This document shows, piece after piece, positions 41,039-57,475 of a stretch of DNA of 64,000 nt; within the stretch, counting starts at the first letter, position 1; each line of letters starts with the position of its first letter. The notes below the pieces were generated by a model. The model saw only the letters and a program-made list of their open reading frames with translations, searched no databases and was not told the DNA's origin. The DNA comes from [Actinomadura] parvosata subsp. kistnae. Lineage in GTDB: Bacteria > Actinomycetota > Actinomycetes > Streptosporangiales > Streptosporangiaceae. The stretch lies in the NCBI RefSeq assembly GCF_900323885.1, contig NZ_OOHJ01000030.1, positions 682,001 through 746,000 on the forward strand. The letters are read 5' to 3'. Both the position numbers and the translations under genes were made by a program.

Positions 41039-41058
41039 GGCTGTCCTTCGCAGAGGGG

Positions 41059-42189: not shown

Positions 42190-42281
42190 TTTGCTCGCCT
42201 CACTGACCGATGCTTTTGTCGCACGATAACGACGGACCGAGCGGCCGATCAAGCCGTTCAATTACATGGCCGTCTAATTAG

Positions 42282-42638: not shown

Positions 42639-42740
42639 CAGATCAGGGTGACAGGAGGCCTTTGCCCGGACAAGCCGCCCGCCACCGGCCCCGCCAAACA
42701 GAATTCGACGTCCTTCTATTTACGGTCGTTCACCGACGCG

Positions 42741-42760
42741 TAATTGCGAGTTAATTGACG
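42741..42760. promoter_or_regulatory. Possible ArsR-type operator (AATTA-rich)
   Basis: TAATTGCGAGTTAATTGACG stands between the divergent arsR and PiT genes. A related AATTA pair (CAATTACATGGCCGTCTAATT at 42259-42279, minus its last base) lies before the CobW gene. These AT-rich, partly symmetric boxes stand out in a 72% G+C region and sit where ArsR would act. Symmetry is imperfect. Confidence 0.3.
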
Positions 42761-42805
42761 CCCCTTTTATCGTCGGCGGGACGTCGAGCGGATCGGAGGC
42801 GGATC

Positions 42806-43870
42806 ATGACCGTCGTGATCTTCATTCTTCTCGTCGGCCTGGCGGCCGCGAACGGCGGCAATGACGTTCCCAAGGGAGTGGCGACGCTCGGCGGAGCAGG
42901 GGTCGCGAGCTACCGCACCGCCGTCGTCTGGGGAACGGTGACCACGCTGGCCGGATCCCTGTGCTCCCTGGCCCTGGCCGACCGGATGACCGCGCTGTTC
43001 TCGAAGGGCATCGTCAGTGCGCCCGCGACCGACCCGTTCGCCTTCGCGGTCCTCCTGGGGACGGCGAGCTGGATCGTGCTCGCCACGTTCCTCCGCCTGC
43101 CGGTCTCGACCACGCACGCCCTGGTCGGCTCGCTGATCGGCGCCGGAGTGCTGCTGGGGAGCTCGTCGGGATCAAGCGTGCACGTCGAAGTGCTGGGCAG
43201 CAAGGTCGTGCTTCCGTTGCTCGCGAGCATCGCGGTCGCGTACGTGTTGTCCGCGGTGCTCAGGCAGGTCGCACGGCGCTTCACCAGACCGGACCGATGC
43301 ACCTGCGCCCAGGCCGAGGCCGAGGTGATCAGCGTGCCCACCGGCGGCGGCGTCCAGGTCGGCACCGTCACCACATGCGCGGTCCACCGCGACCGGACGG
43401 CCCGCGGATTCGACGTGGTGACGGCGGCGCACTGGTTGTCCAGCGGGGCCGCGAGCTTCGCCCGCGGGCTGAACGACACACCGAAGATCGTGGCCATCGG
43501 CACGTTCTCCCTGGTGCCGGCCGGGATGACGATCACGCAGGTGCTCCTGGCCGTCGCCCTGGCCATGGTCGTGGGCTCGCTCGTCGGCGGCCTCCGAGTG
43601 GCGCGGCGGCTGGGCGAGGACGTGGTCAAGATGTCGCACGTGGAGGGGCTGACGGCGAACCTCACCACCGCTGTCCTGGTCGGATTCGGCGCCGGCGCGG
43701 GAATGCCGATGTCCACCACCCAGGTCTCGACGGGCGCGATCGCCGGGATCGCGGGGCGCGACGTCGGACGGCTGAACCGCCGCTCCTTGCGCGACTTCCT
43801 CCTGGCCTGGACGGCGACGCCGCTGATCGCCGCAGGCGTGGCCGCGCTGGCCTTCCTGCTGGTGCGATAG
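42806..43870 (+). CDS. PiT-family inorganic phosphate transporter
   Basis: A permease of about 354 residues with the duplicated PiT signature GGNDVPKG near the N terminus and GLNDTPK in the second half, and about ten helices. A hydrophilic central loop contains CTC and TTC cysteine pairs. PiT carriers move metal-phosphate with protons and are a main entry for arsenate. Its divergence from arsR suggests coordinated phosphate/arsenate handling. ATG 42806 has GGAGG upstream. Confidence 0.92.
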   Translation: MTVVIFILLVGLAAANGGNDVPKGVATLGGAGVASYRTAVVWGTVTTLAGSLCSLALADRMTALFSKGIVSAPATDPFAFAVLLGTASWIVLATFLRLPVSTTHALVGSLIGAGVLLGSSSGSSVHVEVLGSKVVLPLLASIAVAYVLSAVLRQVARRFTRPDRCTCAQAEAEVISVPTGGGVQVGTVTTCAVHRDRTARGFDVVTAAHWLSSGAASFARGLNDTPKIVAIGTFSLVPAGMTITQVLLAVALAMVVGSLVGGLRVARRLGEDVVKMSHVEGLTANLTTAVLVGFGAGAGMPMSTTQVSTGAIAGIAGRDVGRLNRRSLRDFLLAWTATPLIAAGVAALAFLLVR

Positions 43871-44041
43871 CCGACGGCGGGAGGGGTGCCATCAGGCGTC
43901 CTTTCCGCCCGCCCGCGTTATCGCGGAAAATTCGTTGTGCTTCGTGGCGGCCGGCGACATCGACGCCCGCCGAAAGAAACATCGAACAAGTGCCTGCGGG
44001 ATAAAATACCGATCCTCCGAATAATGGCGAAGGGCATTGTC

Positions 44042-44731
44042 ATGGCACCCTTCTACAAAGTATTCGACCTGCCACCGGCCGCCCCGTCCGTCCTGGCCGA
44101 GTTCGCGACCCTTCCGCTGGATCCGTACACCGGCGGGCGGCAGCGCAGCAGACGGTTCTCCCAGTACCGCCTGCGGCTCGACCCCGAGCCTCGTCAGTGG
44201 CGGCTCTCGCTGCTGCCGCATCGGCCGTTCCTCCAGCCGCCCACAGTCAACACCCTGGTCGGCGGCATACCGCGGGAGCTGGAGCCGCTGCGGATCGACC
44301 CGACGCCGCAGATCCACACGGCGGCCCGCCAGATCGGCCTGGACGAAGGTCATGACTGGCACATCAACGTGCACCAGTGCCGGGTGAAGGTCGGCCCGGG
44401 TGTCGCCGGCGTGTCCGTGCCCGAGGGGCCGCACCGCGACGGCCACGACTTCGCGATGCTCGCCGTCTTCGCCCGGCACAACATCTCCGGCGGCGAGAAC
44501 CAGTTGATGCCGCTCGGCGGCGGAGAGCCGTTCTTCCGCGTGACGTTGCAGCCGAACCAGGCTCTGGCCTTCGACGACACGGCCATGTGGCACACGGCGA
44601 CCGACCTGGAGTCGCTCGACGGCGGCTTCGGGCATCGCGACCTGTGGATCGTGGTGTTCAACCGGTGGGACCGCAGGAAGTACGGGGAGGAGTTCGAGGC
44701 CCGGGCCGTCGCGGGAAGAGCCGCCTCATGA
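44042..44731 (+). CDS. 2OG-Fe(II) dioxygenase, amino-acid hydroxylase type
   Basis: A 229-residue enzyme of the 2OG-Fe dioxygenase family that includes the Bacillus L-isoleucine 4-hydroxylase. The iron triad is H131-x-D133 (PHRDGHDF) and H184 (MWHTA); Arg199 (GHRD) should bind 2-oxoglutarate. The family hydroxylates free aliphatic or sulfur amino acids. GAAGGG before ATG 44042 favours this start over ATG 44024. The last codons lie in a 44-bp tandem duplication, and the TGA overlaps an ATG. The following PLP enzyme suggests hydroxylation of a methionine- or homoserine-derived amino acid. Confidence 0.85.
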   Translation: MAPFYKVFDLPPAAPSVLAEFATLPLDPYTGGRQRSRRFSQYRLRLDPEPRQWRLSLLPHRPFLQPPTVNTLVGGIPRELEPLRIDPTPQIHTAARQIGLDEGHDWHINVHQCRVKVGPGVAGVSVPEGPHRDGHDFAMLAVFARHNISGGENQLMPLGGGEPFFRVTLQPNQALAFDDTAMWHTATDLESLDGGFGHRDLWIVVFNRWDRRKYGEEFEARAVAGRAAS

Positions 44732-44795
44732 CGCACCCGCGGACCCGCGCTGTCGCGGGAGGAGCCGCCTCATGACGCACCCGCAGACCCGGGCC
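44708..44795. repeat. 44-bp tandem duplication across a stop/start junction
   Basis: Copy 1 is 44708-44751 and copy 2 is 44752-44795; both begin GTCGCGGGARGAGCCGCCTC and differ at only a few positions. Each copy contains ATG, once at 44728 (overlapping the dioxygenase stop) and once at 44772 (the PLP gene start). The unit is not a multiple of three, so the first ATG no longer reads into the PLP gene. Confidence 0.93.
44728..44775 (+). CDS. 15-codon coupling ORF created by the duplication
   Basis: ATG 44728 opens a frame encoding MTHPRTRAVAGGAAS with its TGA at 44773-44775 overlapping the next ATG (44772). Stops and starts overlap as ATGA at both ends, so ribosomes could pass from the dioxygenase through this mini-ORF into the PLP gene. 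It is a by-product of the 44-bp duplication. Confidence 0.5.
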   Translation: MTHPRTRAVAGGAAS

Positions 44796-45932
44796 GTCCG
44801 GGCGTGGGCGCCGCCACCGCCGACCTCGCGTCCGGTGGCCGTTCCCCTCTACCAGACCTCGACCTTCGCCTTCGAGGACCCCGACGCCTGCGCGGAAGGG
44901 CTGCGTCATCCCGACCGCGGCTACTCGTACACCCGGCATTCCAACCCCACCACCAGGGCCCTGGAGACGGCCGTCGCCGATCTGGAAGGCGGCGTCGCGG
45001 CGCTCGCGACCGCCTCCGGCATGGGAGCGATCAACGCGGTGCTGCTGGCCCTGCTCCGTTCCGGTGACCACCTCATCGTGCAGCGGCGCGTGTACGGCGG
45101 CACCCAGAGCGTGCTCATGCGCCTGGCGGAGCGCTTCGGCGTCGCCGTCACGCGAATCTCGGGTGCGGACGCCGGTGAGCTGGCCGCCGCGGTCAGACCG
45201 GAGACCAGGCTCCTCTACCTGGAGACGATCGCCAATCCGACGACCGAGGTCGCCGACCTGCCCGCGCTGCTGGCGGCGGGCCGGGCGGCCGGGCTGGTCT
45301 GCGTGGTGGACAACACCTTCGCCACCCCGATGTTGTGCCGGCCGATCGAGTACGGCGCGGACGTGGTCGTGCATTCGGCCACCAAGTACCTGGGCGGCCA
45401 CGACGACGTGGTCGCGGGCTTGGCCGTCTTCGCCAGCCGTGACGTGCACGAGCGGGTGTGGCACCTCGCGGCGGACCTGGGTGCGGTGGTGGATCCGTTC
45501 GCGTCCTGGCTGGTTCTGCGCGGGCTGAAGACGCTCGCCCTGCGCGTGGAACGCCACTGCGAGAACGCCGGCCGCCTGGCGCACCTGCTGGAGGGGCATC
45601 CTCGGGTCGCCCACGTGCGCTGGCCGGGGCTGCCCAGCCATCCGAGCCACGCCGTGGCGCGGCGGATCCTCGACGGCTATGGCGGGGTGTTGTCGTTCGA
45701 GGTGGACGGCGACGTGCGCGCGTTCCTCGTCCGGCTGCGCTGCGCGGAGCTGGCGACGTCCCTGGGCGGCCCGCAGACTCTGGTGCTTCATCCGGCGACG
45801 ACCTCGCACCGGGAGCTCGACGAGGCTGAGCTTCGCGCCGCGGGGATCAGCCCTGGGACGCTCCGCGTCTCCGCCGGTCTGGAGCACCATGAGGATCTTC
45901 TGGCCGACTTCGCCCAGGCTCTCAAGGCGTAG
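44772..45932 (+). CDS. Cys/Met-metabolism PLP enzyme (cystathionine gamma-synthase/lyase type)
   Basis: A 386-residue fold-type I trans-sulfuration enzyme. SYTRHSNPTT and ASGMGAINAVL bind the cofactor phosphate, DNTFATPML holds the Asp that contacts the pyridine nitrogen, and HSATKYLGGH carries the PLP Lys. Family reactions include gamma-synthesis, gamma-elimination (methionine lyase) and sulfhydrylation. It is translationally coupled to the 2OG amino-acid hydroxylase. Its end overlaps the convergent regulator gene by 11 bp. Confidence 0.92.
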   Translation: MTHPQTRAVRAWAPPPPTSRPVAVPLYQTSTFAFEDPDACAEGLRHPDRGYSYTRHSNPTTRALETAVADLEGGVAALATASGMGAINAVLLALLRSGDHLIVQRRVYGGTQSVLMRLAERFGVAVTRISGADAGELAAAVRPETRLLYLETIANPTTEVADLPALLAAGRAAGLVCVVDNTFATPMLCRPIEYGADVVVHSATKYLGGHDDVVAGLAVFASRDVHERVWHLAADLGAVVDPFASWLVLRGLKTLALRVERHCENAGRLAHLLEGHPRVAHVRWPGLPSHPSHAVARRILDGYGGVLSFEVDGDVRAFLVRLRCAELATSLGGPQTLVLHPATTSHRELDEAELRAAGISPGTLRVSAGLEHHEDLLADFAQALKA

Positions 45933-46902
45933 CGGCCTCGTCCACGAGGGAGTCCCCCAGCGGGGTCCGCCGGTAGAGGACGCGATACCCGGCGCGCGAC
46001 CGGTCGAGCAGCCCGGCCTCGCGCAGCACCGCCAAGTGATCGCCCACGGTGCCGACGGACAGGCGCAGACCGGCCGCGAGCTGGCTCGTGGTGGCCGGCT
46101 CGCGCAGCTCGTCCAGCAGCCGGGCGCGGGTCCTGCCCATGAGCCTGGCCAGCGCGGACAGGCGGTCGCCTGTCGAGGGCTCGAAGGCGGAGCGGTGCCC
46201 GGCCGGGTAGACGAGGGTGCAGGGCCACGGCTCGTCGGCGTAGACGGCGAAACCGGGCCAGACGAAGGCGCTCGGCACGAGGAGCAGCCCACGTGGCGCG
46301 GTGAGCCGGTCGTCGGGAGCGCAGCGGGCCAGCTCAAGACCTCCTGCTCGCCACCGGATCCGCGGGTGCAGGTCGCCCAGGGTCTTGGCCCATCCGGCGC
46401 GCCCGAGCATCGCGGCGTGGGCGGTGACGTCCCGTTCGTAGGCGGAGCGGATACGGGGCCAGTGCGGAGCGAGCAGGCGGTCCCACGCGTGGGCGAGCGC
46501 GTCGGCGATCACCTCCACGATCTCCGCGCCGGCGAGCGTCGCGCGGATGCCGGCGTCCGTGACCGGGCGGGCTTCCAGGCAGGCCCTGATCTCCTCCCGG
46601 GCCAGCGCCAGCGGCGTGGCGCGGACGGCCGCCAGATCGTCGGCGAAGGTCTGGGCCATGCTGTGCGGCGGCGGGGTGATGAAGCCGGCGTGGTACGTGC
46701 CGCCCTGCAACGCGAGCAGCACGGCGCATCCGGCATGCTGCCGCAGCTCGTCGTAGGCGGGCGAAAGGCGGCGTACCCAGGTCTGGGCGGGGTATCCGCG
46801 GGACCTGCCGCTGAGCACCCGGAGCACGCCCATGAGCTCGAACAGCGGCGACACGGCGAAGCGGCTCGTGGCCAGCTCCTCCGACGACAGCTCTATCCGC
46901 AT
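45922..46902 (-). CDS. ArsR-type winged-helix regulator with DUF5937-like N terminus
   Basis: A 326-residue protein whose last 80 residues form a winged helix (TSQLAAGLRLSVGTVGDHLAVLREAGLL). The long N-terminal part, beginning MRIELSSEELATSRFAVSP, is typical of a common actinobacterial repressor group. It follows the MoaD-like gene after 51 bp in the same direction and may regulate the BNR-MoaD end of the operon or the dioxygenase-PLP pair it converges with. Confidence 0.82.
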   Translation of the reverse strand: MRIELSSEELATSRFAVSPLFELMGVLRVLSGRSRGYPAQTWVRRLSPAYDELRQHAGCAVLLALQGGTYHAGFITPPPHSMAQTFADDLAAVRATPLALAREEIRACLEARPVTDAGIRATLAGAEIVEVIADALAHAWDRLLAPHWPRIRSAYERDVTAHAAMLGRAGWAKTLGDLHPRIRWRAGGLELARCAPDDRLTAPRGLLLVPSAFVWPGFAVYADEPWPCTLVYPAGHRSAFEPSTGDRLSALARLMGRTRARLLDELREPATTSQLAAGLRLSVGTVGDHLAVLREAGLLDRSRAGYRVLYRRTPLGDSLVDEAATP

Positions 46903-46953
46903 GGCGTCCGCGCTCCTCAGGCTTTCCCCCGCCCGGCGTGCACCGTGGCCGGA

Positions 46954-47256
46954 TCAGCCGCCGGCCATGGCGCCGACGATGAGGAAGGGCTCCACCCCGG
47001 TGCGGATCATGCTGGGCAGCGGGCTGTCCGGCGGGTCGAAGGACACGTCCTCCCCGCAGGCGAAGAACTTGACGAGCGCTCTGCGCCGGCCCGTGCTCTG
47101 GTCGCGGATCGTCCCGCGCAGCATGGGGTAGCTCGCTTCGAGCGCGTCCAGCAGCAGGCGCTGGGTGGCTCCTTCTTCGCCGTCGAACTGCAGCGTCACT
47201 TCGCCGTTGACGCTCGCGAGGCGGCGCAGGTGAGTGGGGAGCACGACCCGGATCAT
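46954..47256 (-). CDS. MoaD/ThiS-like ubiquitin-fold protein ending in Gly-Gly
   Basis: A 100-residue beta-grasp protein. The C terminus GAMAGG ends in the Gly-Gly needed for adenylation and thiocarboxylate formation in sulfur carriers. The LRRLA and [11 protein letters not shown] segments fit a MoaD/ThiS fold. No E1-like adenylating enzyme is in the window. Its ATG overlaps the BNR-protein stop (ATGA). MoaD-like plus BNR-repeat pairs are, from memory, a recurring actinobacterial combination of unknown function. Confidence 0.85.
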
Positions 47257-48374
47257 GGCAGGGTCTGCGCTTCCACGGAGAGCACGGCGGGCAGGTGGGC
47301 GGCGACGGCCTCCCAGGAGTCGCCCTCGTCGGCCGAGGCGAACACCTGGCCCCCGGTCGTGCCGAAGTAGACGCCGCAGGGGTCGAGGGAGTCGACGGTC
47401 ATCGCGCCGCGGAGCACGTTGACGTAGCAGCGGTCCTCCGGAAGGCCCTTGGTGAGCGGCTCCCACTCGTGGCCGCCCGTGCGGCTGCGATAGACCCGCA
47501 GCTCGCCGTCGAGGGGATAGTGCTCCGACTCGCTCTTGATCGGCACGACGTAGACGGTGTCGGGCTCGTGCGCGTGGACCACGATGGGGAAGCCGAAGGC
47601 GGCGGGCAGGTCTCCGCTGATGTCCTCCCAGGAGTCGCCGCCGTCATCGCTACGGTCGACGTCCCAGTGCTTCTGCATGAAGAGCACGTCGGGACGCGAG
47701 GGATGCGTCGCCACCCGGTGCACGCAGTGGCCGACCTCGGCACGGGGGTCCGGCAGGTCCCGCGAGTACAGGCCGCGGTTTCTCGGTTCGAAGGTGATCC
47801 CGCCGTCGTCGGATCGGAACAGGCCCGCGGCGGAGACGGCGGCGAAGATCCGCTCCGGGCGGGTGGGGTCCAGGACGACGGTGTGCAGGCACAGCCCGCC
47901 GCCGCCCGGCTCCCAGGTCTGTGCCGACTCGTGCTCCCGCAGCGCCGTCAGCTCCGTCCAGGTGTGGCCGCCGTCCGACGTGCGGAACAGGGCCGCGTCC
48001 TCGACCCCCGCGTACACCGTGTCCGGGTCGGTCGGGGACGGCTGGAACTGCCACACCCGTGCGAACTCCCAGCGATGCGGGGTGGCGTCGCCCCAGTGCC
48101 AGCGGTGGGTGCCGGGCGGGCTCTGGTAGCCGAAGTCGTTGCCCACCGGACGCCAGGTCTCGCCGCCGTCGTCGGAGCGCTGGACCACCTGGCCGAACCA
48201 CCGCGTCGACTGGGAGGCGTACAACCGTCGCGGGTCGGCGGGCGAGCCCGTGATGTGGTAGATCTCCCAGCCCGGGAAGTGCGGGCCGGTGATGTCCCAC
48301 TGCCGGCGCGCGGCGTCCGAGGTCATCACGAAGGCGCCCTTGCGGGTGCCCACCAGCAGGCGTATCCGGCTCAT
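47253..48374 (-). CDS. BNR/WD40-YVTN-type beta-propeller protein
   Basis: A 373-residue propeller with repeated Asp-box motifs: [39 protein letters not shown] and SADEGDSW. There is no signal peptide. Related sequences are often called exo-alpha-sialidase, but the RIP motif and the catalytic Arg triad of sialidases were not recognised, so an enzyme activity is not claimed. Both ends overlap their neighbours as ATGA, so it is cotranslated with the hydroxylase and MoaD-like genes. Confidence 0.85.
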
Positions 48375-49399
48375 CGGGCTCCTCCCACGGGCGACAGGGC
48401 CTGGGCGTCCAAGGTCCGGGAGAACGTCCGGTCACCTGCTCGCGTGCGCAGGACCACCTGCGTGCTCCCGGCCTCGTCGTGCCGCACCTGAACGGTCCGC
48501 TCCCCCGTCCAGCCCGCGAACCGGAACTCGCCGGCGCCTCGGTGGACGAGCCCGTAGACAGGCTCGCCGTTCACGTACAGGCCGAGCCCGCCGGCGTGCC
48601 GGTCGACACTCGCCGGCACGCCGGGCTGATCCTCCAGGAACGCGCCTTCCGGCTCCTCCCACGAGCGGAACGACTCCGGCAGCGTGAAGCGGCACCGGAG
48701 CCTCTCCAGCGCGTCGCGGCCCAGCGGAGCCGCCTCCGGCTCGAAGATCGTGCTCCGGTGCACGGCCGCGCCGTGGAAGACGGGCGGGAAGAGGGCCAGC
48801 AGCGCGGGCGTGACCAGCGAGTCGATGACGAGGTGGACGCGCACGTCGGTGCCCGTGTTCTCGACCATGTGGCCGCGGGTGAAGTCGGCGTACCAGACGG
48901 TGCCCGGCGGCCAGCAGTGGACCTCGCCGGCGATCGTCAGCGTCGCCTCGGGCATCGTCACGATGGGGACGTGCAGCCGCACCGACCCCCAGGGCAGCCC
49001 GACCTTGGTGTCGCTGTGCAGCGGCGTACGCGCGCCGGGACCGAGCGCCATCAGCCGCACGGACGCCAGTCGCGCCGGGATCGCCTTCAGCACCTCGGCC
49101 AGATGGGGCAGCCGGGCCAGCCACGGGGTGTCGGCGAAGTCCGCCAGGTCCGGTCCCCCCGCGTCCCCCCGATCACCGTCGCCGCCGATGCTCCGCAGCG
49201 GCACGGTCCTCCAGTCGAGCTTCGTGGCGTAGTCGCCCAGCCCGTCGCCCGACACGATGCGGATCTCCTTCCAGGCCGTCGCCTTCACCTGGTCGAGGTC
49301 TTCGAGCAGGCGCGCGATGTCGAAGGAGAGGTCCAGCTGAGCGGTCGGCGGCAGTGTCGCCAGGATGGGCGCCTGTGGCCAGGGATCGACGGCTGACAT
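48371..49399 (-). CDS. Aspartyl/asparaginyl beta-hydroxylase-like 2OG oxygenase
   Basis: A 342-residue protein. Its central domain (about 100-200) has the cupin features of AspH-type oxygenases: HSDTKVG with His128, RGHMVEN with His177 as second iron ligand, and Arg187 in VRVHLVID for 2-oxoglutarate. The C-terminal 140 residues are of unknown fold. It lies 24 bp behind the P450 gene in the RiPP operon. The precursor MRYRH has no Asp or Asn, so Arg, His or a later intermediate may be the target, or a free amino acid (inference). Confidence 0.85.
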
Positions 49400-49423
49400 G
49401 GGCTTACCTCCCGTACTGGCGCG

Positions 49424-50566
49424 TCAGCGTGGACGAGCTGTGACGAACATGTGGTTCAGGCCGCGCAGCGTGCCTGTGGGACGTTGCACCGGCGGCTCGG
49501 CGAGGGTGAGGCGGTAGCGCTCGGAGAGCTGGGTGAGCACCGGCATGTGCAGCGACTGGGCGAGGTGCGCGCCGATGCACGCGTGCACGCCCTTGCCGAA
49601 GCCCAGATGGGGGTTGGACTCCCGGGTGAAGTCGAGGTCGTCCGGCCGGCTGAAGACGGCCGGGTCCCGGTTCGCCGCGGCGGGCACGAGGAGGACCTCC
49701 GTGCCCCTGAGGATCTCCTTGCCGCCGAGCGTGACCGTCTCGGCGCAGCCGCGCGTGTCCACCTGCACGGCGCCGGAGTGGCGGATGAGCTCGTTGTAGA
49801 CCTGGTTGCTCACCTTGAGCGGCTCGTCGAGGTTGAGCAGGTTCCGTTCGACGAGGGTGCGGGTGATGCAGCTCAACGTGCTGCTGGAGGAGAGGAACCC
49901 GGCGACGAACATCTGCCGGAGGGCGTTGAGCACGTAACCCGTCAGCGGGCCCGTCCTGCCGAAGTCGACGTGCGCGAGCAGGCCGGTCGGAGGGGGGTTG
50001 ATCGCGTACGGCGCCAGGACGCTGGTGCAGTACCGGCGGGCCTCGACGCCCGGCTCCAGCAGATCCGGGTTGAGCCCGAAGTCCATGCTCAGCACCAGGC
50101 GGCGCTGGGCTTCGTGGAACTTGGCCTCGTCGCCGAAATGGGGGATGCCGAAGAACAGGCACATGCTCCTGAGCGCGAGCGGCTCGTTGAACTGCTTGAC
50201 GTAGTCGAAGCGCTCGAGGTTCACCTCGGCGAGCAGCTCGTCCGCGACCCTGGAGCAGTCCTCGATCCACGCGGGCATGTCGATGTTCCGCATGGCCTCG
50301 ATGAGCAGGTGCCGGACCTCGGTGTGCTCGGGGGCGTCCAGCGTCTGCAGCCCCAGGATGTCCTCCGGAGCCTCCTCGCCGATCTTCCGGTAGTCGTTGA
50401 TGAACGTCTCCGGGTCCCCGAGGATGCGGATGCAGTCGGCGTGCCTGGTGACGATCCAGGCGTTGAGCTGCTCGTGCCAGTGGACGGGGTCCTCGCGCTG
50501 CAGGTGCCGGTACACCGAGTAGGGGTCGGCGAGCATGCTCGGCGAGATGGGTGAGAAGATCTCCAC
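49424..50566 (-). CDS. Cytochrome P450, probable peptide biaryl crosslinking enzyme
   Basis: A 380-residue bacterial P450. The heme loop is FGKGVHACIG with axial Cys330. The I-helix reads FVAGFLSSSSTL, lacking the usual acidic residue-Thr pair, a feature also seen in P450s that form radical crosslinks rather than insert oxygen. GTG 50566 is preceded by CCCGGAG. It lies 17 bp after the ATP-grasp gene and downstream of the MRYRH gene. In biarylitide clusters the only dedicated enzyme is such a P450, which joins the Tyr and His side chains of M-R-Y-x-H. I infer the same role here. Confidence 0.85.
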   Translation of the reverse strand: MEIFSPISPSMLADPYSVYRHLQREDPVHWHEQLNAWIVTRHADCIRILGDPETFINDYRKIGEEAPEDILGLQTLDAPEHTEVRHLLIEAMRNIDMPAWIEDCSRVADELLAEVNLERFDYVKQFNEPLALRSMCLFFGIPHFGDEAKFHEAQRRLVLSMDFGLNPDLLEPGVEARRYCTSVLAPYAINPPPTGLLAHVDFGRTGPLTGYVLNALRQMFVAGFLSSSSTLSCITRTLVERNLLNLDEPLKVSNQVYNELIRHSGAVQVDTRGCAETVTLGGKEILRGTEVLLVPAAANRDPAVFSRPDDLDFTRESNPHLGFGKGVHACIGAHLAQSLHMPVLTQLSERYRLTLAEPPVQRPTGTLRGLNHMFVTARPR

Positions 50567-50583
50567 GTTTCGCTCCGGGAGTT

Positions 50584-51969
50584 TCAGACGACGAAGACGG
50601 GGCCGCAGCCGCCGTTCTTGACGCGGCGGCTCGGACGCCCGAACGGCGGGCTCTTGCGGACGATGGCCGCGGGCACGGCGGCGCCGACCGCGAAGTAGCC
50701 GTAGTCCACATATGTCGGCTCGCTGACCAGCGAACCGTCCTTGATGATGGAGGCCATGGTCGGGTGTGACCTCGCGATCCGCTGCACCATCCACGCCTCG
50801 CCGGCGGCCACGGCCTCGTCCAGCGCCGCCAGCCAGCGTGCGGAATCGGTCTCGCAGCCGATCGTCACGCCGCGGCCTCCGTACCCGGCGCCGGGCTTGA
50901 GCACCAGGGACTCGCGGTGGTCCGCGCACCACTTCAGCAGGTCCACGCGACGGCCGTCGACGTCGGCCGGGACGTCCTCGATGACCCGCGTCCACGGCAC
51001 GAACGTCGCGAGCACGTCCCGCAGCCGGGCCGGCAGCGTGCCCGCGTCCAGCTCCTCGGAGACGGTGGCGAGAATGGTCTTGTTGAGCGCGATGGCGTCG
51101 TCGAGATCGTCCACGATCACCACGCGTCCCGCGCGGCCCGCCTCCAGGATCGGCGCGAGCAAGGGGTAGTTGCCGATGGGGTCGGGCTCCTCACCGGCGA
51201 CCCGGTAGAGCAGGGAGCACCGTTCGCCCTTGTACGCCACCCCGCCGTCGCCGACGTCGAGGTCCTCGACGGCGGCCGCTTCGGCGCGCAGCCCGTGCCG
51301 CCGCAGCTCCTGGGAGAGACCGTGGCAGTCGTCGCACGGGCCCCCGAGATCCGCCTTGAACTCGATGACCAGGATGCGCGCCGCGGCCGGCGACTCCCCC
51401 GCTTCCACCAGCCGTTCCCGCAGGTAGGCGGCGAGCGTGGCGACCACGTCCGTGCGGTACGCATCCCGCTTGCGCAGGAAGTCGCCGATGATCAGCGACT
51501 GCTCGAAGAGCCGGCCCAGGATGTCGGCATCGGGCATGTAGCCGCAGGAGGAGCCGGCGTTGGGCTCCACCATGGTGAGGTCGTCGTCGTGGATGACCAC
51601 GTCGGGGCGGGCGATGGTCATCCAGCGCGGCCTGCGCGCCGGGTCGACGTAGCCGAACGTCGGCTCCTCCAGCCGCAGCGCCTGCGCCAGCCGGTGCCAG
51701 GATCCGCGCAGGCGGCCGTCGAAGATCAGGTCGAGCGCCTCCTGGAAGGCCCGATGGCAGCGCGCGAAGCGCTCGGCCACCTCTTTCGGCAGCAGCGCGG
51801 GGGGCACCGGCATGCGTTCGCCGACACAGCAGCTCAGGCGGCTGTCGCGGAGCCCGGACAACGCGTCGCCGGCGTCGTCGAAGTATTCCGCCAGCTCGGT
51901 GGCGTGCTCCCGCGCGTACGCCTGCATCTCGGAATTCAGCGCGTTGATTCGCTGCTCTAACGTCTGCAC
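50584..51969 (-). CDS. ATP-grasp ligase
   Basis: A 461-residue protein with the ATP-grasp nucleotide loop SLVLKPGAGYGGRGV in the last third, and NAGSSCGYMPDAD earlier, a layout reminiscent of glutathionylspermidine-synthase or circularly permuted ATP-grasp proteins. Such enzymes activate a carboxylate as acyl phosphate and join it to an amine or thiol. GTG 51969 follows GAGGAGAG; a longer in-frame reading to 52056 would overlap the hairpin. Being between precursor and P450, it could cap, extend or cyclise the peptide (inference). Confidence 0.83.
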   Translation of the reverse strand: MQTLEQRINALNSEMQAYAREHATELAEYFDDAGDALSGLRDSRLSCCVGERMPVPPALLPKEVAERFARCHRAFQEALDLIFDGRLRGSWHRLAQALRLEEPTFGYVDPARRPRWMTIARPDVVIHDDDLTMVEPNAGSSCGYMPDADILGRLFEQSLIIGDFLRKRDAYRTDVVATLAAYLRERLVEAGESPAAARILVIEFKADLGGPCDDCHGLSQELRRHGLRAEAAAVEDLDVGDGGVAYKGERCSLLYRVAGEEPDPIGNYPLLAPILEAGRAGRVVIVDDLDDAIALNKTILATVSEELDAGTLPARLRDVLATFVPWTRVIEDVPADVDGRRVDLLKWCADHRESLVLKPGAGYGGRGVTIGCETDSARWLAALDEAVAAGEAWMVQRIARSHPTMASIIKDGSLVSEPTYVDYGYFAVGAAVPAAIVRKSPPFGRPSRRVKNGGCGPVFVV

Positions 51970-52006
51970 CGGCTCTCCTCGACGGATCTCGTGCTTTTTA
52001 CGCCGT

Positions 52007-52044
52007 CCCCTGTCCGGCCGTGACACGCGCCCGGCGGACAGGGG
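52007..52044 (-). promoter_or_regulatory. Hairpin between precursor and ATP-grasp gene
   Basis: CCCCTGTCCG (52007-52016) and CGGACAGGGG (52035-52044) pair perfectly over 10 bp with an 18-base loop that can extend the stem. It lies about 40 bases after the MRYRH stop codon. No U-tract follows, so it may be an attenuating or mRNA-stabilising element that keeps precursor output above enzyme output, as in other RiPP operons. Confidence 0.6.
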
Positions 52045-52086
52045 GCGGCCGTTCATTTGTCAGGTCATTTTCCGGCGTGTCTCACT

Positions 52087-52104
52087 TCAGTGGCGGTAAC
52101 GCAT
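52087..52104 (-). CDS. Five-codon RiPP precursor gene, peptide MRYRH (biarylitide type)
   Basis: ATG CGT TAC CGC CAC TGA on the minus strand encodes Met-Arg-Tyr-Arg-His. A perfect Shine-Dalgarno AAGGAGG (52117-52111) stands six bases upstream. Known biarylitide precursors are 18-bp genes such as MRYYH, in which a P450 links Tyr-3 and His-5 and the N-terminal Met-Arg is removed. This peptide fits M-R-Y-x-H at every fixed position, with Arg as variable residue. Its operon contains a P450. No leader peptide is needed. Predicted product: a crosslinked Tyr-Arg-His tripeptide, possibly modified further. Gene too short for normal gene callers. Confidence 0.85.
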   Translation of the reverse strand: MRYRH

Positions 52105-52110
52105 GGTCCA

Positions 52111-52117
52111 CCTCCTT
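52111..52117 (-). promoter_or_regulatory. Perfect ribosome-binding site of the pentapeptide gene
   Basis: AAGGAGG read on the minus strand, with spacer TGGACC before ATG 52104. It is stronger than the sites of most neighbouring genes and is the main evidence that translation starts at this ATG rather than upstream in the same frame. Confidence 0.85.
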
Positions 52118-52147
52118 GACGGACAGCTAGCTGAGCGGGTGCGATTC

Positions 52148-52205
52148 CATTCCCAGGAAAAGCCGAACGGCAATCCGTATCGCTTTTCGGCTGTGCCGGG
52201 AAATG
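52148..52205 (-). promoter_or_regulatory. Long imperfect inverted repeat before the pentapeptide gene
   Basis: Arms 52148-52167 and 52186-52205 pair at 16 of 20 positions with an 18-base loop. The innermost AGCCGAA/TTCGGCT and outermost CATT/AATG match exactly. It begins two bases after the radical SAM stop and ends 43 bases before the precursor ATG. It may separate expression of the two genes by attenuation or RNA processing. Confidence 0.55.
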
Positions 52206-52207
52206 GC

Positions 52208-53458
52208 TCAGCAGCGGACGCAGCAACGGCCGGCGCCCGCCTCCACGGCCTGCTGGTGGCGTTCTGCCCACAGCTCGTCCACCGCCGGGTCAGGGTGGGT
52301 CCAGTCGTAATGGAAGCCACGGTCGATCAGCTCGACGCCGTCCAGCCAGCCCGATCCGAGGAGGGGCGACCCTTTGTAGAGCAGCAGCCTGGTCTGGCGT
52401 GCGGTGGGGTCCACCGAGGCGGCGATCCCGGTCTCTTCGAGGAAGCTCTCCAGCGCCCGGATCTCCTCCAGGCCGACCCAGGGGGTGAAGGTGATGAACG
52501 AGGGGCGCAGCTCGAAGCCGGTCGCCTGCGCCACCCGGATGGCCTGCTTGATGCCGGGCACGTCGATGCCCTTGTCGAAGATCCGCAGCAGCTTGTCCGA
52601 CGGGAATTCCAGGGCGGAGGTCACCACCCGCAGGCCGAGCTCGGTCATCCGGCCGAGCTCGGCCTCGAACTCGAGGATGTGGTCGAAGCGGGTGGTGATC
52701 TCGAACGTCACCGGCCCCAGCCGCTCGGCCACCGCCTCCATGGCGGTCAGCGCGTGGCGGCGGGTGTTGAAGAACTCGGCGTCGACGAAGACGAAGTGCC
52801 CGGCGCCCTGCGCGGCGAGCTGCGTGGCGTCGGCGAGGATGACGTCCGGGTCGATCGGGATGGCCGTGACCCCGTAGGAGGCGTAGACGGCGCAGTAGCT
52901 GCAGCGGTGATGGCAGCCTCGGGTCGCCTCGATGTTGCCCATCAGCCCGAACTTCGTGGTGTGCGCCGGGTAGTCGGTGAGCGGCGGGAACAGGTCACGG
53001 GCGGGCACCTGCCACTGCCGTGCCGCATGCCGCTTGGGCCTGACCCGCGAGCCCCCGGTGATGACGCCGCCGAGCTCGCCGGGCGTGACCTCGCCACGAG
53101 CGCAGGCGACCAGGTCCGCGGCCATGCCCTCGGGCTCGTCCACGATCACGCCGTCGGTGACGGCCGACAGAGCGGCCGCGTTGAGCCAGGCGTACTGGCC
53201 GAAGGCGAGCACGCGCCGCGCTCCCGCGGCCTTGAACCGGGCGGCCAGGTGCGCGCCCGCTTCGATTCCCTCGAAGGAGGGGATCGAGATCAGCACCAGA
53301 TCGAAGCCGCCGCCGGGAAAGTCGAGGGGAAAGCCGCCGGCGTCCCACCCGGTCACTTCGGCGCCGGCGCCCCGCAGGGAGCCGGCGGCACTCGCGGCCA
53401 GAACCGGCTGCAACTCGGCTTCGAAAGCCGAAACAACTGCGATGGACGGACCGCTCAT
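52208..53458 (-). CDS. Radical SAM enzyme with B12-binding-like N terminus and RCCVRC tail
   Basis: A 416-residue protein. Residues 1-150 form a Rossmann-like, cobalamin-domain-type region. The radical SAM cluster motif is C182-x3-C186-x2-C189 in TRGCHHRCSYC. The protein ends in RCCVRC, three cysteines in the last five residues. Short Cys tails define some known radical SAM groups (as I recall, CUAEP/CCAEP-tail and RCCLKC-tail families; ArsL of arsinothricin biosynthesis may be related). ATG 53458 has AAGGGAGG upstream. It precedes the pentapeptide gene by 103 bp. Peptide or heteroatom chemistry is possible; the substrate is unknown. Confidence 0.85.
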   Translation of the reverse strand: MSGPSIAVVSAFEAELQPVLAASAAGSLRGAGAEVTGWDAGGFPLDFPGGGFDLVLISIPSFEGIEAGAHLAARFKAAGARRVLAFGQYAWLNAAALSAVTDGVIVDEPEGMAADLVACARGEVTPGELGGVITGGSRVRPKRHAARQWQVPARDLFPPLTDYPAHTTKFGLMGNIEATRGCHHRCSYCAVYASYGVTAIPIDPDVILADATQLAAQGAGHFVFVDAEFFNTRRHALTAMEAVAERLGPVTFEITTRFDHILEFEAELGRMTELGLRVVTSALEFPSDKLLRIFDKGIDVPGIKQAIRVAQATGFELRPSFITFTPWVGLEEIRALESFLEETGIAASVDPTARQTRLLLYKGSPLLGSGWLDGVELIDRGFHYDWTHPDPAVDELWAERHQQAVEAGAGRCCVRC

Positions 53459-53576
53459 CGAAAGCCTGCCTCCCTTGCACGGGCTCGCGCCTTTCGTGAA
53501 CCGACGCGCCATTCTGACACGGCAGGCCCGGGCACCGGCGTGTTCGCGTTTACCGGAAATTGCCGCCGGGAAATTC

Positions 53577-54872
53577 TCAGGATTTGTTGGGCGCGGCCAT
53601 ACCGGCGGAAATGTCATCCGCAACCACGCCCGGCGTCGGCAGCAGCGCCCTCTTCGGCAGCAACGGACCCGCCATCGCCGTGGTGATCAGTGCCATCAAC
53701 ACCATGAGTGTGAACATGGCGCCGTCCAGGACACCGAGGCTGACCCCCACATTGAGAATGATCAGTTCGGTCAGGCCCCGCGTGTTCACGAGGATGGCCA
53801 AGGTCCCCGACTCGCGCCGGCTCATCCCGGAGATCAGGGCGGGCCCGGCCGCGCCCAGCATCTTCCCGGCGCAGGCCACCAGCACGATGGCCGCCAGCTG
53901 CAGGTATTCACCGCCGGTCAGGGCACTGATGTCGACGCTCAGCCCGGTGACGATGAAGAACACCGGCATGAGGATGAGGCTGACGTTGGCGAGCGGCACC
54001 CTCAGCCCTTGCCGCAGCACCTCGGCGGGCTCGCGCGGCATGGCGACCCCGAAGGCGAATGCCCCGAAGATGGGATGGATCCCGATCAGCGTGGTGGCGT
54101 ACGACGAGATGAGCACGCCGGCGCACAGCACCACCACCAGGAACGGCGAGACGCGCTCCTGAGCCCACCGGCCGATCACCGCCTTCAGCAACGGACGTAC
54201 CAGCAGGGCCATCACCAGGACGTACGCGGCGGCGAGGCCCGCCGTCCGCAGGAAGCCGGCGAGATCCCCCGACGTGGCGAGTGCCGCCACGAGTGCCAGC
54301 AGACACCAGGCCAGGACGTCGTCGATCGCGGCGCTCGCCAGCGCCAGGGCTCCGGCCCGGGTGAACATGAGCCAGTTGTCGGCCAGGATCCTGGCCAGCA
54401 CGGGGAACGCCGTGATCGACATCGCGGTCCCGAGGAAGAGGGCGAACGCGGCCAGCGACACGCGTTCGCCGTTGACCACCGCGTGGTGCTCGTACAGCAC
54501 GAGACCCAGGGCCACGCCCAGGCCGAAGGACAGGGCGATCGAGGACAGGGAGACCGCGGCGGCCGTCTTCTTCTGACTGCTGATCAGCTTGTGCTCGAAC
54601 TCCCAGCCCACCCCGAACATGAAGAACAGCAGCCCTACCTGGGCGATCATCTTCAGGTGCGGGCGCGCCTCGTCCGGGAAGATCACCCGCGTGGGGTCGC
54701 CCGGCAGCAGGCCGAGCAGGCTCGGACCGAGCGCGATGCCCGCGAGGATCTCGCCGATGACGGTGGGCTGGCGGAACCTGGTGACCAGCCGTCCCAGGAC
54801 GGCTCCGACGACGAGGATCAGCGCGACGTCGGCGATGACCACGGCGCCGACGAGTTCACTGCGGTCGTGCAT
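53577..54872 (-). CDS. Cation:proton antiporter (CPA2/Kef type)
   Basis: A 431-residue membrane protein with about 12-13 helices. The family core motif is FGVGWEFEHKL after helix 3, and the ion site lies around AIDDVLAWCLLA, with two consecutive Asp as in electrogenic CPA2 antiporters. No C-terminal TrkA-N domain is present. It lies 27 bp downstream of the MFS exporter gene on the same strand. Such antiporters are common in antibiotic clusters, where they may support export or self-protection. Confidence 0.9.
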   Translation of the reverse strand: MHDRSELVGAVVIADVALILVVGAVLGRLVTRFRQPTVIGEILAGIALGPSLLGLLPGDPTRVIFPDEARPHLKMIAQVGLLFFMFGVGWEFEHKLISSQKKTAAAVSLSSIALSFGLGVALGLVLYEHHAVVNGERVSLAAFALFLGTAMSITAFPVLARILADNWLMFTRAGALALASAAIDDVLAWCLLALVAALATSGDLAGFLRTAGLAAAYVLVMALLVRPLLKAVIGRWAQERVSPFLVVVLCAGVLISSYATTLIGIHPIFGAFAFGVAMPREPAEVLRQGLRVPLANVSLILMPVFFIVTGLSVDISALTGGEYLQLAAIVLVACAGKMLGAAGPALISGMSRRESGTLAILVNTRGLTELIILNVGVSLGVLDGAMFTLMVLMALITTAMAGPLLPKRALLPTPGVVADDISAGMAAPNKS

Positions 54873-54899
54873 GCGTGCCTACCCCTCAGCGGACGCCTG

Positions 54900-56258
54900 T
54901 TACCTGGTCTCCGTGGGACGAGGGGTACGTACGAGGCTCGGGTCGTCCGTCTCTGTCCGGACCCTCGTCGCGGGCCGCGCATTGCCGGTGCCCGAGCAGG
55001 AGCACGGGGCGCCGGCCACCTGCTTGAGCGGCACCGCCAGGGCCCGCCCGACGAGGACGACCCCGAGCACCGCGGCGACACCGCCGCTCAGTGCTATCAC
55101 CGTGGCGACCGGTACGGCCAGTGCCACCGCCCCGGACACGGCCGGCCCGATCCCCTGCACGGTCATCAGCCCGGTGCTGCGCAGCCCGAAGGCGAGGCCG
55201 CGCTTGTCCTCCGGGACGGAGTCCACGAACCGCAGCTCAAGCCCGAGATCGTAGGCCAGGCCGATGCCGCTGAGCACGAGGAACGCGCCGATGACCGCCA
55301 CCGGCAGGTCGAAGAGCAGCGCGACCAGCGGCAGCCCCGCGACGAGGGGCAACCACAAGGTGAGCCGATCGCGCAACGTGACGTCGGTGACCTTCCCGAA
55401 CGCCAGGTTGCTCACCATCATGCCGACCGCCAGGCACGCGAGCAGCACGCCGGCGACGGAGGCCGGATGGCCGTTCTCGGCGGTGTACGGCACGATCAGC
55501 GCCTCCGCGCCCGTCACCAGCCCCGGCGGGATCCATTTGGCGAGCAGCAGCGTGAGCACGGACGAGGTCCCGAGCAGCTGGAAGTTCTGCCGCCAGCTGT
55601 CCGCGAACGTGGACAGCCTGCGGCCGGACGGCGGGGCGCCGGCCGGTGCGGGTGCGGCAGGCAGGTCGGGCAGCCCGATCCGGATCATCAGCACGCTGCT
55701 GAGGTGGAAGGCGGCGCTGAGCACGATGGTCGTCTCCGCGCCGAACGCGGCGACGCTGAAACCCGCCAGCGCGTTGCCGACGAGCTGGGCGGCCAGTGGC
55801 GCGCTGCACCACAACGCCCGTCCTTTGACGTAGTCGTCGCCGGCGAGCACCTCGGCCACCAAGCGGCTCGACGCGCCCTGGTAGAGCGGGGTCACCAGGG
55901 CGACCATCGCGACGAGGATCAGGCTCACGGCCACCGGTGGCCGCCCCAGCCCGATGACGAGCCCGACGCTCGCGTCGATGGCGAACAACGTCGTGAGCAG
56001 GGGCCTGGGACGCAGCCGGTCGGCGAGCGTGCCGAGCAGGCTGGAGCCGAGCATCTGCGGCACGAACGTGATGCTGTACGCGACGGCCGACCAGAGAGGC
56101 GATCCGGTGATGGCGAAGACCGAGACCGCCAGAGCGAGCGCCCGGACCGAGTCGCCGGTGACGGCGAGCGAACGGGTCAGGAAGAGCATGCGGAATGCGG
56201 GTTGCGCGAGCACGCGCCGATACGTCGAACGCTGCAGCCGATTACTGACCTCTGCCAT
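54900..56258 (-). CDS. MFS transporter, probable exporter of the cluster product
   Basis: A 452-residue, 12-helix carrier. Loop 2/3 reads GTLADRLRPRPL, and the sequence around AVSVFAITGSPLWSAVAYS resembles actinomycete drug-export MFS proteins. The hydrophilic C terminus contains a short APCSCSGTG segment. It is downstream of the StrR-type regulator gene with 110 bp between them and is the natural candidate for secretion of the finished peptide. Confidence 0.88.
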   Translation of the reverse strand: MAEVSNRLQRSTYRRVLAQPAFRMLFLTRSLAVTGDSVRALALAVSVFAITGSPLWSAVAYSITFVPQMLGSSLLGTLADRLRPRPLLTTLFAIDASVGLVIGLGRPPVAVSLILVAMVALVTPLYQGASSRLVAEVLAGDDYVKGRALWCSAPLAAQLVGNALAGFSVAAFGAETTIVLSAAFHLSSVLMIRIGLPDLPAAPAPAGAPPSGRRLSTFADSWRQNFQLLGTSSVLTLLLAKWIPPGLVTGAEALIVPYTAENGHPASVAGVLLACLAVGMMVSNLAFGKVTDVTLRDRLTLWLPLVAGLPLVALLFDLPVAVIGAFLVLSGIGLAYDLGLELRFVDSVPEDKRGLAFGLRSTGLMTVQGIGPAVSGAVALAVPVATVIALSGGVAAVLGVVLVGRALAVPLKQVAGAPCSCSGTGNARPATRVRTETDDPSLVRTPRPTETR

Positions 56259-56368
56259 GCCGTCAGTATCTGGCGGCCCACATGCATCGCAAGAGTTTCG
56301 CCCACCACCGTAAGTCCCCTGGCCGGCCGGCAGGACGCGGGGGGTTCACCGCCTCCTGCCAGGGCGTT

Positions 56369-57475
56369 TCACGGGCTCGGGCTCGGAAGGGCCTGGGCGG
56401 GGCTCGCGGCCACCGGCTGGGACCGGCAGCATGCGGAGTCCTGCGCGTGTTCGAGCTGGCAGGCGAAATCCTGCCACTTACTGGCCACCTGACGCGCGAT
56501 CGTCGCAACGGAGTGACGGCAGTGCTCCGGCATGCTGTCGAGGAAGGTCTCCCAGTCCTTATTGTCAATGGCGTGCAGATGCAGCCAGCGCAGGAAGAGC
56601 CGGCCGGTGTCGGTGTACTTCAGCGACGGGTCCTTCGTCAGGCGCGCGAGCATCGCGTCCAGGCAGGCGGTCTCCTTCGACAGCGCGATCTGCGACGCCG
56701 ACTTCGCCGGTAAGGCCAAGGGGAGCGTCCGCCCATTCGTCTCGCGCCTGCCCGGCACGGGATCGTCGCCGCGGAGCATCCGCTGCCGGACGTCGTGAGC
56801 CGTCGCCAGGGACACACCCGACGCCTCCGCGACCCTGCGCAGCGGCTTCGTCGGCTCGGCCGCGAGAATCTCCGCGGCCCGCCGACGCCCGTCGGCCGCG
56901 CTCATGGGCCGCGTCCGGCCGTCCAGCCCCAGCCGCTCGTTCGACTGCGGGATTTCCGAACTCGAACGGATCGCCCGGACGGTCTTGTCCGACAGACCCG
57001 TCCGCGTGGCGATGGCACGATCCGACCAGTGCGGATGAGACTTGATGATGCGGTCCGCAGCCGCCCGGCGATCGGCATGCGTCAGCGGCATGCCGTGAGT
57101 GACGTTGCGTTCGACGGAGACGACGAACGCGTCCTCCTCGGTGCCATCGTAGAAGTAGGCGGTGATGCTGCCCTTGCCGTTCAACTGCGCGGCGCGAACA
57201 CGATGTGCGCCGTCGATCACGCGCATCGTGCCGCGTTGCACGAGAATGGGCGGCAGCGACAGGTCGATCTCCGCCAGTCGCTGCACATGCTCGCGATCCT
57301 GGCCGTTCAGCCGCGGAGAGGCGTCGAGCACGAGCTGATCAAGCGGCACCCGGATCGCCGGTTGCTGTTCCCACGGCGCATGTCCCATCGACGCGACTTC
57401 TGGCACCTGCTGCTGTGCAGTCCGACCGGACTGGTGGTTCGGGTCCTGCATGCATGCCCCCGCATGGACTCTCAC
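56369..57475 (-). CDS. StrR-like ParB-domain pathway-specific regulator
   Basis: A 368-residue protein. The N-terminal ParB/Srx-like domain shows PLDQLVLDASPRL and later TMRVIDGAHRVRAAQLNG. The helix-turn-helix region is WSDRAIATRTGLSDKTVRAIR. This is the arrangement of StrR, NovG and the glycopeptide-cluster activators. A C-terminal Trp/His-rich part (LRWLHLHAIDNKDW) is longer than in StrR. It heads the minus-strand cluster and probably activates it. GTG 57475 is tentative; an ATG eight codons later is possible. A StrR-box-like sequence lies inside the gene. Confidence 0.88.
   Translation of the reverse strand: MRVHAGACMQDPNHQSGRTAQQQVPEVASMGHAPWEQQPAIRVPLDQLVLDASPRLNGQDREHVQRLAEIDLSLPPILVQRGTMRVIDGAHRVRAAQLNGKGSITAYFYDGTEEDAFVVSVERNVTHGMPLTHADRRAAADRIIKSHPHWSDRAIATRTGLSDKTVRAIRSSSEIPQSNERLGLDGRTRPMSAADGRRRAAEILAAEPTKPLRRVAEASGVSLATAHDVRQRMLRGDDPVPGRRETNGRTLPLALPAKSASQIALSKETACLDAMLARLTKDPSLKYTDTGRLFLRWLHLHAIDNKDWETFLDSMPEHCRHSVATIARQVASKWQDFACQLEHAQDSACCRSQPVAASPAQALPSPSP
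56939..56967. promoter_or_regulatory. StrR-box-like inverted repeat inside the regulator gene
   Basis: GTTCGACTG and AACTCGAAC are separated by 11 bases. The StrR operator consensus, as I recall it, is GTTCGACTG-N11-CAGTCGAAC, so the left half is perfect and the right half has seven of nine positions. It lies within the coding region of the StrR-like gene itself. No equally good copy was found by eye before the biosynthetic genes. Confidence 0.5.

Follow-up and report, generated by a model that had tools for sequence, protein, structure and literature searches.

Why should a radical S-adenosylmethionine (SAM) enzyme resembling ArsL stand immediately ahead of a gene that encodes only five amino acids? 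The question is raised by a locus in a 64,000-nucleotide stretch of DNA from the soil bacterium [Actinomadura] parvosata subsp. kistnae (contig NZ_OOHJ01000030.1, positions 682,001 to 746,000; the whole stretch is referred to here as the window). The host genus of the locus is Nonomuraea, and there is a second copy in Nonomuraea solani. The operon appears to unite an enzyme of the kind that forms carbon–arsenic bonds, as in the antibiotic arsinothricin, with genes for making a five-residue peptide. Our judgement tips just towards a hybrid of an organoarsenical cluster and one for a ribosomally synthesised and post-translationally modified peptide (RiPP), in which an arsenical amino acid would be joined to cross-linked YRH. 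The arsenical half and the biarylitide half are each well supported; that they are joined is what we infer.

The original prediction had named five genes here as an enlarged biarylitide operon; all of them are present as stated, on the minus strand, with the pentapeptide gene between the radical SAM and ATP-grasp genes:

52208–53458, minus strand: ArsL-like radical SAM enzyme, 416 residues; cluster motif CHHRCSYC, C-terminal RCCVRC, model NF040542
52087–52104, minus strand: pentapeptide gene, bytA-like, MRYRH-stop; Shine-Dalgarno sequence AAGGAGG immediately upstream, identical in N. solani
50584–51969, minus strand: circularly permuted ATP-grasp, probable amide ligase, 461 residues, GTG start; from family profile and alignment
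49424–50566, minus strand: biarylitide-type P450, 380 residues; I-helix VAGF, heme Cys motif GFGKGVHAC
48371–49399, minus strand: AspH-like 2-oxoglutarate (2OG) oxygenase (aspartyl/asparaginyl beta-hydroxylase-like), 342 residues; PF05118, 1.5e-14

Kinship of the radical SAM enzyme with ArsL

The radical SAM enzyme matches the ArsL model NF040542 over its full length with 410 bits, where the cut-off of the model is 450 bits; the next model, CUAEP, scores 234. Its RCCVRC tail corresponds to RCCLKC in ArsL-type proteins, to which it is 37–39% identical. At E 1e-40 the ArsL model finds a match in one of 394 actinomycete genomes, namely that of the window. In Burkholderia gladioli, ArsL is required for hydroxyarsinothricin and its gene adjoins arsR and pitA; the enzyme is predicted to move the aminocarboxypropyl group of SAM onto arsenite (PMC8552651).

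Arsenic genes also accompany the window enzyme; neither they nor the likeness to ArsL had been noticed in the original prediction. About 10 kb from the enzyme lie genes for a CobW protein, an ArsR with a CVCDLT site, a PiT transporter and a molybdoenzyme, with arsC beside them:

42806–43870, plus strand: PiT phosphate/arsenate transporter; PF01384, 9e-55; homologues in a Priestia arsinothricin (AST) island and in a genome of a sister genus (G944)
42282–42638, minus strand: ArsR/SmtB repressor, CVCDLT site; PF01022, NF033788
41059–42189, minus strand: CobW-family GTPase of the arsinothricin-island subfamily; 34–39% identity with its counterparts in 16 plasmid AST islands, with a match in no other plasmid
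38540–41038, minus strand: Tat-type molybdopterin oxidoreductase; PF00384/PF01568/PF04879; adjoins arsC, ArsR, ACR3 or PiT genes in relatives
37991–38419, minus strand: arsC-type arsenate reductase, beside the syntenic block described below; TIGR02689, 93 bits; not at this place in N. solani

A radical SAM gene with ArsR, PiT and CobW GTPase genes beside it is a feature of arsinothricin-type islands. ArsL/RCCLKC relatives were found in 16 plasmid records; the annotated ones hold arsenic islands with ArsR, an MFS protein or ArsQ, a CobW-like GTPase, an aquaporin, PiT, ArsN1 and usually ArsM, together with an ATP-grasp protein except in Pseudomonas. A CobW homologue (E 1e-30) is present in 16 of 72,556 plasmids, 15 of which are RCCLKC radical SAM records; the sixteenth has an IS1-truncated island that retains arsM, aquaporin and ars genes. 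With the Alicyclobacillus CobW as query, the island CobW is the sole match in the 13.6-Mb genome of the window and in N. solani. Homologues of the PiT and the ArsR both occur in one Priestia island. Small CC-motif proteins recur in AST islands (L070, L071, L073, L076), with tails SSCCS or SSCCK or with internal CC pairs, and are possible arsenic carriers.

Six further genomes of the family encode relatives of the molybdoenzyme at 71–77% identity. In G944 the molybdoenzyme lies with PiT, ArsR, arsC, CobW (50%), a FemAB-like protein and an ArsP_1-family permease. The radical SAM enzyme of this genome is 52.5% identical to that of the window, scores 447.6 bits to ArsL and ends in RCCIKC. There is no pentapeptide, P450 or ATP-grasp gene at the G944 arsenic locus, which is the arsenical module standing alone. 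Taken by itself, this locus (L126 and L131) is a candidate organoarsenical cluster of an actinomycete.

The idea that the radical SAM enzyme tailors a biarylitide does not survive this comparison. The original prediction had named, as a finding that would speak against it, radical SAM and ATP-grasp genes conserved together without the pentapeptide and P450. This is largely what is seen, in that the G944 enzyme lies among arsenic genes without pentapeptide, P450 or ATP-grasp, and in Bacillota and Enterobacterales islands ArsL-type enzymes occur with no annotated P450 and with a different ATP-grasp, of LAL type. As its relatives stand in arsenic loci without pentapeptide or P450, the radical SAM enzyme is therefore assigned to the arsenical module, and from homology and context we consider arsenic chemistry its probable function.

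An arsenic-free alternative is that the enzyme places an aminocarboxypropyl radical on the peptide, for example on His as in diphthamide formation, in which Dph2 cleaves SAM at C-gamma. The core peptide does end in His, the branch of the enzyme is long, and the radical chemistries of ArsL (PMC8552651) and Dph2 are alike in this cleavage. However, the RCC..C tail is kept, and the nearest relative, that of G944, lies with arsC, ArsR, PiT and the ArsP permease and has no peptide gene, so that we regard a peptide-directed enzyme as improbable.

Biarylitide precursor and P450

The MRYRH gene, ATGCGTTACCGCCACTGA, is 18 bp long (52104–52087) and is preceded by AAGGAGGTGGACC, a perfect Shine-Dalgarno sequence. 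No other open reading frame in the 64-kb window both fits M-x-[YWH]-x-[HWY]-stop and has a Shine-Dalgarno sequence, and the gene has the biarylitide precursor form M-x-Y-x-[HWY]. In the alignment of the window with N. solani, the Shine-Dalgarno sequence and the gene make up a 41-base invariant run amid diverged spacer. Judged from these sequences, a chance reading frame is very unlikely. No report of MRYRH or of a YRH core was found in the searchable literature.

The P450 scores 444 bits against the crystallised 9jv0/9jvf, the next group being at ~240 bits, and it is 54% identical to the enzyme behind MRYYH in locus L088. In another genome of the family (G629) a P450 lies directly behind an MRYYH gene and its first 130 residues are those of the crystallised PDB chain; motif and family indicate that the P450 of this chain and MRYYH locus is probably Planomonospora BytO, a literature search for 9jv0, 9jvf and 9jvj having been uninformative. 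Eight of the ten other Nonomuraea P450 relatives scanned adjoin MRYLH, VRYLH, MRYAY or MRYVY genes. The MRYRH gene and the likeness of the P450 to an MRYYH-paired enzyme thus bear out the prediction of a biarylitide-type precursor and P450 with extra tailoring genes, and biarylitide-type cross-linking is, on this homology, almost certainly encoded here. Position 221 of the I-helix is Val in the window P450 and likewise in the MRYYH enzyme, and His in MRYLH enzymes and 9jvj. SavB was predicted to be a C–C linker because it resembles BytO, also in residues of the I-helix (PMC13417212). Because of this precedent and the shared V221, a C–C link is expected, and the sequence suggests that the window P450 cross-links Tyr and His in this way.

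The precursor and P450 genes are ~1.5 kb apart with the ATP-grasp gene between them, and do not have the tight adjacency typical of biarylitides, a rule with six published exceptions (PMC13417212). Some of the 277 biarylitide clusters reported have Pgm1 ATP-grasp ligases or an Asp/Asn hydroxylase; no radical SAM enzyme appears in the main text of that survey (PMC13417212). The AspH-like oxygenase and the ATP-grasp ligase, which the original prediction treated as part of a combination without known parallel in described biarylitides, are not new to them, since the Asp/Asn hydroxylase savH and the Pgm1-type ATP-grasp are already published in such clusters, the Pgm1-type ligases coupling nonproteinogenic amino acids to ribosomal peptides (PMC13417212). 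A further case (L112:6829–12973) is from an actinomycete belonging to the host's class, in which MFYDH occurs with a P450, an AspH-like protein and a LAL-type ATP-grasp; a probable amidinotransferase was recognised there by eye (no Pfam match). The relatives of the window AspH-like protein are mainly outside biarylitide loci, and it therefore says little about the product.

The view of the original prediction, an ordinary biarylitide cluster in which radical SAM enzyme, ATP-grasp and AspH-like oxygenase all act on the tripeptide, and under which the arsenic genes would be there by coincidence, can draw on these published AspH and ATP-grasp genes. Against it stands a radical SAM type so rare among the 394 actinomycete genomes and tracking arsenic genes across phyla, and we hold out little prospect for it. 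A slighter prospect still is that the pentapeptide serves as a scaffold, carrying a modified amino acid as with RufO. In that precedent the P450 nitrates the Tyr of MRYLH, and the nitrotyrosine set free serves as a building block (PMC13417212); at the window locus, however, there is no nitric-oxide synthase, and the P450 is nearest to the MRYYH enzyme rather than to the type associated with MRYLH and nitric-oxide synthase. A second N. solani locus (L068), with MRYLH, a RufO-like P450 and a nitric-oxide-synthase-like gene, is a probable nitrotyrosine locus.

The ATP-grasp protein

The ATP-grasp protein has no match in Pfam or NCBIfam. In alignment, R121, D123, E135 and N137 come ahead of K358-P, which is the motif order of a circularly permuted ATP-grasp, and the profile of its family matches the GspS-like PDB entry 3n6x (2e-8) and Cp1B, 9cjn (2e-6). 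In Cp1B, R139, D141, E163 and N165 are placed around the active site and are necessary for activity (PMC12568646). This R-x-D...E-x-N pattern is invariant in the family of the window protein, and for this reason the protein is likely to be an active amide ligase. The locus does not have the features of a Pgm1-type cluster: the precursor has Arg at position 4, and the ligase combines a permuted motif order with the lack of a Pfam match, Pgm1 itself having been left out of the comparison. Identity with the ligase of AST islands was considered and rejected, as BLAST against two such proteins matched nothing. Plasmid matches to the window protein are weak and in Streptomyces only, and its relatives in Nonomuraea and Streptomyces are near non-ribosomal peptide synthetase and other biosynthetic genes.

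Ligases are also seen at other arsenic loci. In G905 and G932 the molybdoenzyme is ~15–20 kb or less from arsC, ArsR, PiT, an AhpD/CMD-like gene and three LAL-type ATP-grasps, with iPGM-like and CTP-synthase-like genes at the same loci (iPGM and ACR3 confirmed in G905). These iPGM-like and CTP-synthase-like genes are reminiscent of bisenarsan-type arsenical clusters. Taken with the AST-type islands, the ATP-grasps mean that amide ligases are recurrent neighbours of organoarsenical loci, and of more than one type of these. With the ATP-grasps in tandem and with ABC transporters, the loci of G932 (L124/L133) and G905 (L125/L132) look like bisenarsan-type organoarsenical peptide clusters.

Operon structure and conservation of the locus

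Between the stop codon of the radical SAM gene and the pentapeptide gene there are 103 bp; from the pentapeptide gene onward a single transcription unit had been predicted. In favour of this are the 24-bp spacing from the P450 gene to the AspH-like gene (50566–49424 and 49399–48371), as had been claimed, the gap of 17 bp between ATP-grasp and P450 genes, and an ATGA overlap shared by the AspH-like gene and the BNR gene. The claim is weaker than originally put, since a hairpin-bearing spacer of 117 bp separates the pentapeptide and ATP-grasp genes. The hairpin is strong and is kept in both Nonomuraea species despite changed sequence; the two spacers fold with −43 and −37 kcal/mol, the z values being merely −1.8 and −1.9. 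On account of this stem-loop, a possible attenuator or mRNA stabiliser, the precursor may have a transcript level different from that of the enzymes.

The scan of genome contigs found a single close relative of the ATP-grasp, that of N. solani (86%); gene content and order at its locus are those of the window, and the MRYRH gene is identical. Synteny spans 38540–57475 of the window and ends on both sides, the flanks being different, so that in two species one block unites the arsenic genes with the operon from radical SAM to AspH-like gene. All 16 genes of the block have dN/dS values of 0.13–0.30 between the two and are under purifying selection. Among 54 Nonomuraea genomes, the radical SAM enzyme and close P450 are in these two alone, there being otherwise one distant CUAEP-type protein. 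The remaining features are:

52001–52050, minus strand: conserved stem-loop, limits approximate; from folding, stem kept while the sequence changed between species
53577–54872, minus strand: CPA2-type antiporter; PF00999, conserved in N. solani
54900–56258, minus strand: MFS exporter; PF07690, conserved in N. solani
56369–57475, minus strand: ParB-like/helix-turn-helix protein, final gene of the syntenic block; conserved in N. solani
47253–48374, minus strand: BNR/VPS10-repeat protein; PF15902, PF02012, conserved in N. solani
46954–47256, minus strand: small protein, 100 residues; no Pfam match, resemblance to MoaD/ThiS judged by eye only
45922–46902, minus strand: DUF5937-ArsR-type helix-turn-helix regulator; PF19361, PF12840
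44772–45932, plus strand, convergent: Cys/Met-metabolism pyridoxal-phosphate enzyme; PF01053, 1.7e-129, conserved in N. solani
44024–44731, plus strand: 2OG-Fe dioxygenase of the free-amino-acid hydroxylase type; PF10014, 90.6% in N. solani

In N. solani an L-lysine 6-transaminase gene (L056:13605–14924; TIGR03251, above cut-off), absent from the window, is inserted between those for PiT and the 2OG dioxygenase. Between the same two genes in the window lies the palindrome TTTCCGC-N14-GCGGAAA (43902–43929), the only one found in looking for exact palindromes with 7-base arms as ArsR boxes.

Proposed pathway and possible joining of the two halves

In the pathway that we propose, the PiT and ArsR proteins and the redox and GTPase proteins would, from their families and context, serve in arsenic import, sensing and handling, and the radical SAM enzyme would convert arsenite to an amino acid like hydroxyarsinothricin. 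The P450, as its family strongly indicates, would cross-link Tyr and His in MRYRH, probably through a C–C bond, with subsequent trimming to YRH. The permuted ATP-grasp could then form the amide bond between arsenical amino acid and peptide, the AspH-like oxygenase might conceivably hydroxylate one or the other, and the MFS protein would export the product. The likely logic would be that of a glutamate-mimic antibiotic borne on a peptide, as in phosphinothricin peptides. If pentavalent hydroxyarsinothricin and cross-linked YRH were linked through one amide bond, the calculated [M+H]+ would be 682.192, with 15.995 more upon hydroxylation, against 473.226 for cross-linked YRH by itself.

We give even chances to the two halves serving one joint product, and this joining is the weakest step. 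The competing possibility of two products, with radical SAM enzyme, CobW, PiT and ArsR making a free arsenical amino acid, pentapeptide, P450 and AspH-like oxygenase a biarylitide, and the ATP-grasp serving one only, gains from the self-sufficiency of each half: the arsenical module is alone in G944, and P450–precursor pairs are alone in many genomes. It is nevertheless unlikely in our view, as the pentapeptide and ligase genes are directly behind the radical SAM gene on the same strand in both species, despite the different flanks.

Several observations weigh against the hybrid cluster. The radical SAM enzyme is slightly below the ArsL cut-off and on a long branch, and trees do not settle its position relative to the ArsL and CUAEP proteins, nor whether it nests inside ArsL. 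The island has no ArsM homologue, the best ArsM-like match in the genome being ~550 kb away, and none of its genes matches ArsQ, MFS and CPA2 transporters being present. The ATP-grasp shows no sequence homology by BLAST to the two AST-island proteins compared. The CobW family is not exclusive to arsenic islands: the closest CobW within the genus, in G463, has no arsenic genes nearby. Finally, the meeting of the two halves in one molecule goes beyond the sequence. A CobW related to the island copy adjoins, in G463 (L083), a Tat protein with the N-terminus MCRNDGSCCAPAG.

The locus works like an arsinothricin cluster, but it should not be filed as one because it has no ArsM or ArsQ homologues and its radical SAM enzyme is under the cut-off. 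A ribosomal, P450-cross-linked peptide bearing a C–As amino acid, from an ArsL module fused to the smallest known RiPP module, is a possibility that we put a little below even.

The components are of known kinds and their combination is new as far as this is testable. We know of no earlier arsenic-containing RiPP, and the joint molecule, if real, would be the first. The literature search found no paper on biarylitides together with arsenic, bar one incidental co-mention, none on arsinothricin with an ATP-grasp, and no report of an arsenical/biarylitide hybrid cluster or of an arsenic-containing ribosomal peptide. Very few organoarsenical antibiotics are known; the hybrid, if true, would widen the range of ArsL chemistry to include actinomycetes and would introduce arsenic to ribosomal peptides. 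Biarylitides, which have no known biological function (PMC13417212), would gain a role as carriers of a glutamate-mimic warhead.

Comparison with known systems

Like the locus, arsQML of B. gladioli and the Priestia, Alicyclobacillus, Pantoea and Klebsiella islands have an ArsL-type radical SAM enzyme with an RCCxxC tail, and the ArsR and PitA genes beside ArsL in B. gladioli are comparable (PMC8552651). The RCCLKC islands further share with it the CobW GTPase, MFS, PiT and ATP-grasp. The locus differs from these arsinothricin systems in having no arsM or arsQ homologue, in its additional pentapeptide, P450 and AspH-like genes, and in the subfamily of its ATP-grasp. Bisenarsan (bsn) of Streptomyces is likewise an actinomycete organoarsenical made beside ars genes, but its C–As bond is formed with iPGM/EPSPS-type enzymes and no SAM enzyme (PMC12159101). 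The ATP-grasp is like the Cp1B (E-64) and GspS-type ligases in its R-x-D and E-x-N motifs and the lysine near the C-terminus, the profile match being distant.

With the byt biarylitides (BytO/MRYYH) the locus has in common an 18-bp MxYxH gene and a BytO-type P450 (54%), whereas its ATP-grasp gene between precursor and P450, the ArsL-type radical SAM gene in front and the YRH core set it apart. The Pgm1-type (MxYDH) and sav (savT/savH) clusters differ in their LAL-type, non-permuted ATP-grasp, in Asp at position 4 and in having no radical SAM enzyme. Like the locus, however, they combine a biarylitide with an amide ligase, an AspH-like enzyme or both, and their logic of adding a nonproteinogenic amino acid to a ribosomal peptide is comparable.

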